A stretch of 64,000 bases of DNA from the NCBI GenBank assembly GCA_019449415.1, contig JAGRPP010000017.1, forward strand, positions 62,001 through 126,000, in the 5' to 3' direction. The translations under genes and the position numbers were made by a program. Of the stretch, positions 25,076-28,828 are shown one piece after another (the first letter of the stretch is position 1; each line of letters starts with the position of its first letter). The stretch comes from Geothrix sp. Lineage in GTDB: Bacteria; Acidobacteriota; Holophagae; Holophagales; Holophagaceae. Under the pieces are notes generated by a model. It was not told the origin of the DNA. It did no database searches and saw only the letters and a list, made by a program, of their open reading frames with translations.

Positions 25076-25256
25076 GGATGCTCCGTGGAGGGATCGTTGG
25101 ATCGTACCTCCGGGAAGGGCCGCGCGGAAGCGCTCCTTGTGATTCCTGCAACAAAGCCGCGAATTGATGACCTTCCAGGAAAGATCGCGTAAGACGAGGT
25201 GTAAGCTGGGGGCAATCAGCCCAAAAACTAGGGCACTCAATTGAAGGAGTGTGGCT

Positions 25257-27509
<2,253 letters not shown>

Positions 27510-27533: not shown

Positions 27534-27555
27534 GCGGGGGCCTTCGGGCCCCCGC
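27534..27555 (+). terminator. terminator after maeB
   Basis: GCGGGGGCC, loop TTCG, GGCCCCCGC: a 9-bp stem with a stable tetraloop, 24 bases after the stop, followed by TGTTAT. Confidence 0.7.
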
Positions 27556-27592: not shown

Positions 27593-28027
27593 TTGGCGGA
27601 TGTGCTGTGTGCCTGGTGCGGGGCTTTGGTCGGACAGAGTGCGGCTGAGCATTCCCACGGCATCTGCCAGCCTTGCTATCAGCGACTCCGGGGCGTTCCC
27701 GATCTCACCGAAGAAGAACTCGACGAGCTGCCCTTCGGCGTCATCGTGCTTTCCCGGGATGGCATCATCCGCTCGTACAACCGGGCCGAAGGTGAACTCG
27801 CCGGGCGGGCACCCGGCAGCGTACTCGGCAGGAACTTCTTCGCGGAAGTGGCCCCGTGCACTTCCGTCCAGGCCTTCGAAGGCTCCTTCCGGGCGTTCTG
27901 CGAAGGGGACGAGGTCTCCCGGACCTTCCAGTTCACCTTCCGGTTCCCGGCGGGCCCGGTGCGGGTACAGATCGTCTTCCTCCACAAACAGCCGGATGTG
28001 GCGGTGGCGATCCGGAAGCTCCCCTAG
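27593..28027 (+). CDS. PAS protein with photoactive-yellow-protein residue set and an N-terminal Cys/His cluster
   Basis: 144 residues from a TTG preceded by GGGAG at 5 bases. Residues 6-28 hold CAWC, His20, His22 and CQPC, a likely zinc site. Residues 45-144 form a PAS domain that aligns without gaps, at a constant offset of 20, to what I recall of Halorhodospira PYP over PYP residues 42-98. The chromophore residues are kept: Tyr62 (PYP Tyr42), Glu66 (Glu46), Arg72 (Arg52) and Cys89 (Cys69) in FFAEVAPCT. Thr50 is Ala70. It could bind p-coumarate and sense blue light, or be a sulfur/redox PAS relative. No tyrosine ammonia-lyase or coumaryl-CoA ligase gene is in the window. Confidence 0.75.
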   Translation: MADVLCAWCGALVGQSAAEHSHGICQPCYQRLRGVPDLTEEELDELPFGVIVLSRDGIIRSYNRAEGELAGRAPGSVLGRNFFAEVAPCTSVQAFEGSFRAFCEGDEVSRTFQFTFRFPAGPVRVQIVFLHKQPDVAVAIRKLP

Positions 28028-28036
28028 CGGGCCGGC

Positions 28037-28828
28037 TCAGCGTTCCAGCTGCCGCATCCACTCCTGGATCTCGGGGTCGGGATCGGGGCTGAGGTGCAGG
28101 GCCATGCGCAGGTCGATGAGGGCCTGTCCGGGCTCGTCGCGCTGCAGGTGGATGAAGGCGCGTTCCTTGTGGGCCCTTGGATTGCTGGGCTCGAGGAGGA
28201 TGAGGTGGGTGCCGGTCCAGAGGGCCTCTTCCCAGTCCTCCGCATGCATGAAGCGCAGGTGCAGGTTCCGCACAAGGCGGACGAGGATCTGGCGATCGGG
28301 TGCGGGGCTGAGCATGTCCCGGTGGAAGGCCACGCGGCCGGCGGTGGCGGACTTCACCAACTCGGCTCCGCCCTCCTCGCCCACGGGCCGCCCCTGGTGG
28401 AAGGGATCGAAGCAGAGCAGGCCGAAGTCCGTGCGCAGGGCGGCGATGAAGTGGCCCGGGAGCCTCACACCCACGGCGTCGAACCCCATGCGCCGAGCCA
28501 GGTCGATCCAGAGGATGGACAGCGAGATGGGTAGGCCCTTCCGCCGCGCAATCACGGCCGGAAGCAGCGCATTCAGCGGATCGTCGTAGGTCTCGCGGTC
28601 GCCGGTGAAGCCGAGTTCCGTGAAGAGCAGGTGGTTGAGCGCGTCCAGGGCCTTGTGGGTGTTCCAGGGCAGGGGCATGCGGCCCGCGAGGATGAAGGCC
28701 CACTCATTGAGCTGCAGGGCGACATGGTCGGGATCGGGATCATCCAGGGCCGGCGCCACGGCGTGCACGGCGCCTTCAGCCAGATTCCGGCACTCGGGAT
28801 CCTCGCGCAGGTACTCGAGCAGGGACAT
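28037..28828 (-). CDS. SirB1-like transglutaminase-fold protein with TPR tail
   Basis: 263 residues. The SirB1/transglutaminase-like block is clear: DPLNALLPAVIARRKGLPISLSILWIDLARRMGFDAVGVRLPGHFIAAL. The C-terminal third has repeat-like helices (WEEALWTGTHLILLEPSNPRAHKERAFIHLQRDEPGQALIDLRMALHLSPDPDPE). The function of the family is not established; E. coli SirB1 is linked loosely to regulator expression. It begins on the TGATG overlap with the small membrane protein, so the two and the phosphatase gene form an operon. Confidence 0.83.
   Translation of the reverse strand: MSLLEYLREDPECRNLAEGAVHAVAPALDDPDPDHVALQLNEWAFILAGRMPLPWNTHKALDALNHLLFTELGFTGDRETYDDPLNALLPAVIARRKGLPISLSILWIDLARRMGFDAVGVRLPGHFIAALRTDFGLLCFDPFHQGRPVGEEGGAELVKSATAGRVAFHRDMLSPAPDRQILVRLVRNLHLRFMHAEDWEEALWTGTHLILLEPSNPRAHKERAFIHLQRDEPGQALIDLRMALHLSPDPDPEIQEWMRQLER

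Follow-up and report, generated by a model that had tools for sequence, protein, structure and literature searches.

The open reading frame at positions 27593–28027 of the 64 000-nucleotide stretch of Geothrix DNA analysed here (the window) raises the question of what a protein resembling photoactive yellow protein (PYP) might do in a soil and sediment bacterium that we take to be non-photosynthetic. An earlier note had proposed a light or thiol-reactive sensor carrying a zinc domain. The PYP core and the four-cysteine module underlying that proposal were both borne out, whereas its light and zinc components are here argued as likely, with the supply of chromophore as the main difficulty. The reading we favour, at a probability of roughly two in three, is that this small PYP-family protein acts as a stand-alone blue-light sensor, with a finger of four cysteines, most likely holding zinc, in place of the usual N-terminal cap. 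Proteins with this domain arrangement are referred to below as finger-PYPs.

The gene and its PYP-type PAS domain

The gene, here called pyp, occupies 27593..28027 on the forward strand and encodes 144 residues, so that the frame, coordinates and residues first read from the sequence were correct. It starts with a TTG codon at 27593, at which most Geothrix orthologues have ATG, and is preceded by GGGAG as a plausible ribosome-binding sequence; a scan for promoter and terminator was negative. A dN/dS of 0.036–0.24 among close relatives shows that purifying selection maintains the gene.

Comparison with all PDB sequences using phmmer aligned residues 38–127 of the protein with PYP residues 18–107, with zero gaps and an offset of 20, within a PYP-type PAS domain that spans residues 38–144 (27704..28024, forward strand). 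All of the PDB sequences thereby matched (33/33) were PYP or PYP-derived, with the best chain being 1mzu (Ppr-PYP; E 8e-23). This ungapped alignment showed that the residue assignments made in the earlier note were right, with Tyr62, Glu66, Ala70, Arg72 and Cys89 corresponding to PYP residues 42, 46, 50, 52 and 69. The codons for Tyr62 to Glu66 lie at 27776..27790 and that for Cys89, which is invariant in the orthologues, at 27857..27859, both on the forward strand. PYP is a blue-light sensor that binds p-coumarate at Cys69, with the phenolate of this chromophore held by Tyr42 and Glu46. The change of Thr50 to alanine was also confirmed and is ordinary, as Ala50 is the consensus of 984 PYPs, with four measured Ala50 PYPs absorbing at 435–465 nm (PMC12826048).

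With regard to profiles, PYP was the best match (TIGR02373 photo_yellow of NCBIfam; E 1.1e-28, 99.8 bits, missing the equivalog cut-off of 143.05 bits), with a weaker match to the PAS family PF00989 (7e-10). The TIGR02373 model is stated to find only about 20% of PYP homologues (PMC9664959), and the placement outside the PYP clade that the earlier note had named as grounds for refutation was in substance not seen. The same paper defines the family by conservation of Cys69 together with Tyr42 and Glu46; the equivalents of all three were found here, in a protein whose sequence and predicted fold both resemble PYP more closely than they do any other type of PAS domain. All nine pocket residues as listed in PMC12826048 had their equivalents (Ile31, Tyr42, Glu46, Phe62, Val66, Ala67, Pro68, Cys69 and Phe96), and in 18 orthologues eight of these were invariant while the ninth was either Val or Ile. 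The Tyr42 and Glu46 equivalents were moreover present in 25/25 finger-PYPs drawn from the best 80 of 478 relatives, a collection selected only by the stretch FFx[EDQ][VI]APC, such that positions 62–69 give no evidence of conservation in that set.

Structure prediction by AlphaFold2 on the 18 orthologues (mean pLDDT 80) gave a fold with its best matches among PYPs (Z 16.3, rmsd 1.9, 116 residues), with the first PAS structure not derived from PYP found at Z 12.6. The protein is thus well supported, by sequence, pocket and fold, as a PYP-family member with an intact-looking sensor core. Its patchy occurrence (about 19 of the 47 Geothrix genomes have it) could be taken to mean that it is instead a PAS protein that is decaying or that resembles PYP at these residues by accident. 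We consider that explanation exceedingly improbable and rejected it, in view of the match to the PYP profile (E 1e-28), the PDB matches, the conservation of the whole pocket among orthologues and the dN/dS values given above.

The N-terminal four-cysteine module

Residues 6–28 (27608..27676, forward strand) form a predicted metal-binding finger of the type CAWC-x15-CQPC, in which the pattern C6-x2-C9, His20, His22 and C25-x2-C28 was present as first read. The four cysteines were invariant in 18 Geothrix and Holophagaceae orthologues while the two histidines varied, and among more diverse members C6, W8, C9, I24, C25 and C28 were invariant, again with varying histidines. A Cys4 site is therefore the simplest reading of these sequences, and the general pattern across finger-PYPs can be written C-x-W-C-x(13-31)-GIC-x2-C.

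Predicted alone, the module (pLDDT 88) gave two strands that form a hairpin and then a helix, which begins at the second CxxC. This modelled layout would fit a treble-clef finger, in which one cysteine pair sits at the hairpin and the other where the helix starts. Foldseek searches with the module alone gave a best, non-significant E of 1.5 and a list consisting nearly entirely of zinc fingers (ZZ, PHD, RING, LIM, C1, ribosomal uS14 and a ZBD), whereas VIA-align gave no match with a Z of 2 or more. In a Pfam scan of the members no family stood out, with the weak matches being mostly to zinc ribbons and also to the PknG rubredoxin domain. The latter match would agree with the module being a structural or redox CxxC pair, either as a disulfide switch or as a rubredoxin-like iron knuckle. 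We hold this to be unlikely, because the predicted hairpin-helix geometry and the dominance of zinc fingers in the Foldseek list favour zinc, and zinc ribbon families match more of the members than does the rubredoxin family. Binding of zinc by the module thus seems likely, judging from the four invariant cysteines, the predicted finger and these weak, mostly zinc-finger matches. The ClpX zinc-binding domain is a small treble-clef zinc finger, and ClpX-type fingers (2ds5, titled 'ZBD', in the Foldseek list) have in common with the module as modelled the order CxxC, hairpin and CxxC at the helix start; this is a likeness of arrangement only, as the sequence and structure matches were non-significant.

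In the fold alignments, PYP was matched only from residue 24 or 28 of the protein on (PYP residue 7 or 8), which puts the predicted finger at the position taken in classical PYP by the initial portion of the N-terminal cap. The module, as the earlier note had proposed, is a real and conserved feature missing from classical PYP.

It also occurs elsewhere. The motif CxWC...SHGICxxC was found at the N-terminus of three Holophagaceae proteins with a non-PYP PAS domain (L027/L180, L029/L179 and L026, the last with GFGIC in place of SHGIC); this PAS domain has an extra cysteine cluster of its own (e.g. CGRQIHCSGCTIRRC). A longer form, CAWCKKIRDDxGYWxxLExYL...SHGICPxC, ends several Geothrix membrane or PAS proteins. 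When proteins other than PYPs were searched with a profile of the module, many of the matches were short and weak, and those cited here were read by eye as CxWC...SHGICxxC. The C-terminal form recurs in L182, L183, L184, L186, L187 and L191, with no named family found for it and no paper found that contains the peptide CKKIRDD. It shares CxWC and SHGICxxC with the module of finger-PYPs but differs in the spacing of its cysteine pairs, which are about 25–27 residues apart as against 15, in being C-terminal and in not being fused to PYP. The common motif suggests that the two may descend from the same ancestor, and the four-cysteine module looks like a mobile, signalling-associated one.

Genomic setting, distribution and origin

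The order in pyp-bearing relatives is a malic-enzyme gene, a hairpin, pyp and a convergent SirB1-like gene. In the window, the upstream neighbour is malic enzyme/phosphotransacetylase-like (25251..27509, forward strand) and the downstream neighbour SirB1-like (28037..28828, reverse strand), both named by eye and both syntenic, the latter with and without pyp. Between the malic-enzyme gene and pyp lies a GC-rich hairpin (27534..27555, forward strand) of a kind that recurs at junctions lacking pyp. Tandem repeats of the type CAGCTATCAG are found between the malic-enzyme gene and the hairpin in several Geothrix (junctions L206, L208 and L209).

The junction without pyp spans about 50–120 bp in G011 and G032, which have no pyp, and in G006 and G048, which have a diverged finger-PYP at another place; in G017, G021 and G035 an unrelated small lipoprotein-like ORF lies between the same two genes. 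Because its neighbours can thus adjoin each other or flank another small ORF, pyp is a self-contained cassette at one spot. It lies downstream of a hairpin that stays with the upstream gene even where pyp is missing. The malic-enzyme-like gene and pyp are probably not functionally linked. An operon partner was considered and rejected, with pyp standing alone between conserved neighbours, and none of the neighbourhoods examined had a signalling gene consistently next to it. In the other phyla no neighbour recurred, save for a lipoprotein-like gene in two Gemmatimonadota (L108:6501-7370 and L110:693-1517). This gene overlaps the finger-PYP gene by 4 bp, with 36% identity between the two copies and no Pfam match for either.

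The complete genome G010 is of the same species as the window, with G. fermentans, G. campi and others as top named relatives. Using a contig scan of the genome collection, from which the best 80 of 478 relatives were taken, we found finger-PYPs beyond Geothrix and Holophagaceae in an acidobacterium (L093), in Planctomycetota (L095, L097 and L098), in Gemmatimonadota (L108, L110 and L115) and in a deltaproteobacterium (L126). Among these best 80, all finger-PYPs outside Geothrix and Holophagaceae came from MAGs and the only isolates with the arrangement were Geothrix. In a tree of the PYP domain, built on 107 columns, the 25 finger rows needed 3 changes compared with about 22 in shuffles, and 2 changes when four long rows were removed. 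Constraining them to one clade was not rejected (p-AU 0.39), making this 107-column tree compatible with a single origin of finger-PYPs.

Since PYP homologues of Acidobacteriota have already been reported (2.4% of 984 in PMC12826048, and also in PMC9664959), PYP itself is not new in this setting; what is new is the domain arrangement with the Cys4 module. The main texts of these two papers do not mention finger-PYPs or use the word zinc, and CXXC is absent from that of PMC12826048, while their supplementary tables may list such proteins. PMC12826048 reserves its multi-domain class for proteins longer than 200 residues, and a four-cysteine module would therefore be overlooked. Our literature search found no relevant paper on zinc together with PYP or on Geothrix photoreceptors.

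Chromophore supply, proposed mechanism and relation to known PYPs

The genome of the window is 64% complete, and the absences given here are therefore drawn from G010, the complete genome of the same species, and from the other genomes. For the PYP-type p-coumarate:CoA ligase (pCL; TIGR02372), only partial matches were found, none of which exceeded about 52 bits across the 47 Geothrix genomes or 60 bits across nine genomes that encode a finger-PYP. As a positive control, the same model gave near full-length matches of 213–343 bits in 10/10 proteobacterial PYP genomes. At E 1e-30 it found none in 5 acidobacterial or myxococcal PYP genomes without the finger (L094, L099, L103, L111 and L119), so that the split became 10/10 proteobacterial versus 0/14 other PYP-bearing genomes tested. 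This raises the question of which chromophore non-proteobacterial PYPs use.

The search for a dedicated tyrosine ammonia-lyase (TAL), which the earlier note had likewise suggested, was also negative in G010, where the only protein of the aromatic ammonia-lyase family PF00221 is the histidine ammonia-lyase HutH, scoring above its equivalog cut-off. A Lyase_aromatic protein was found in 46/47 Geothrix genomes, as a rule a single one per genome and regardless of whether pyp was present. G010 has six AMP-forming ligases, which appeared to be of acetate, fatty-acid, acyl-ACP and MbcS-like types, as judged from match regions alone and scores below cut-offs. A p-coumarate route in Geothrix is hence absent or yet to be recognised. 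This weakens light sensing without refuting it, because most pyp operons of other bacteria also lack both TAL and pCL (PMC12826048); the ligase is common beside PYPs and TAL rarely so, with neither being obligatory.

The missing enzymes could also mean that the PYP fold here carries another cofactor or none, with Cys89, possibly together with the N-terminal cysteines, sensing redox state or electrophiles rather than light. None of the finger-PYP hosts is known to be a phototroph, which would agree with such a role. Redox-type PYP derivatives have moreover been proposed in methylobacteria (PMC9664959). Those derivatives, however, have lost Cys69 and changed Tyr42, which is the opposite of the pattern seen here, where none of the 25 finger-PYPs has lost the phenolate-holding Tyr42 or Glu46, and TAL and pCL are as noted also missing from most pyp operons elsewhere. 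We therefore regard a redox or electrophile sensor as rather unlikely, and light sensing by the finger-PYP as likely.

In the blue-light sensor that we prefer, the classical cap (about residues 1–25) would be replaced by the four-cysteine, most likely zinc-bound finger, and a p-coumaroyl-type chromophore would be attached as a thioester to Cys89 with its phenolate held by Tyr62 and Glu66. As the usual PYP ligase would not be loading this chromophore, it would have to be supplied through some less specific CoA ligase or in a different way. Blue light would then isomerise the chromophore and rearrange the pocket, and the change would travel on to the N-terminal finger, which would lie packed on the sheet of the PAS domain. 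The finger would thereby bind or let go of a partner, or of a second molecule of the same protein. HDX-MS has shown that the light signal of PYP reaches the N-terminal cap (reviewed in PMC4477167), and this counts for the finger as a possible output because the cap is the part replaced here. The signal output of single-domain PYPs is an acknowledged open question (PMC9664959 and PMC12826048), and a PYP with a conserved finger built in for its cap offers a compact candidate output surface within one protein. More tentatively, and as a possibility that we would not bet on, finger-PYPs might form a separate multi-phylum branch of PYPs whose output would be a zinc finger that is released or engaged by light, and whose chromophore would be attached with no part played by the known PYP ligase, by a new route or as a different chromophore.

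Other PYP fusions were seen in Holophagaceae and Acidobacteriota, with domains named by eye: EAL-PYP (L021, L024 and L109), PYP-kinase (L020 and L023) and PYP with a domain of about 210–250 residues (L022, L103, L107 and L111). The EAL domain here precedes a C-terminal PYP, as opposed to the N-terminal placement of PYP for EAL in a 2025 survey.

Among known systems, the PYP of Halorhodospira halophila (2phy and 1nwz) shares with the Geothrix protein its fold, the 90-residue ungapped register, the nine pocket residues and the small stand-alone form. The Geothrix protein differs in having the Cys4 module for the N-cap, Ala for Thr50, Ala for Met100 and no Trp119, and in that no PYP-type pCL was found in its host genus. 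Acidobacterial and myxococcal PYPs such as L099, L101 and L119 have the same PYP core with Tyr, Glu and Cys, and differ from the Geothrix finger-PYP in lacking the four-cysteine module. The closest solved sequence, the Ppr-PYP of Rhodospirillum centenum (1mzu; E 8e-23), has Arg52 and Cys69 in common with the Geothrix protein; Ppr is a fusion of PYP, phytochrome and histidine kinase, whereas the Geothrix protein has no output domain beyond its finger.
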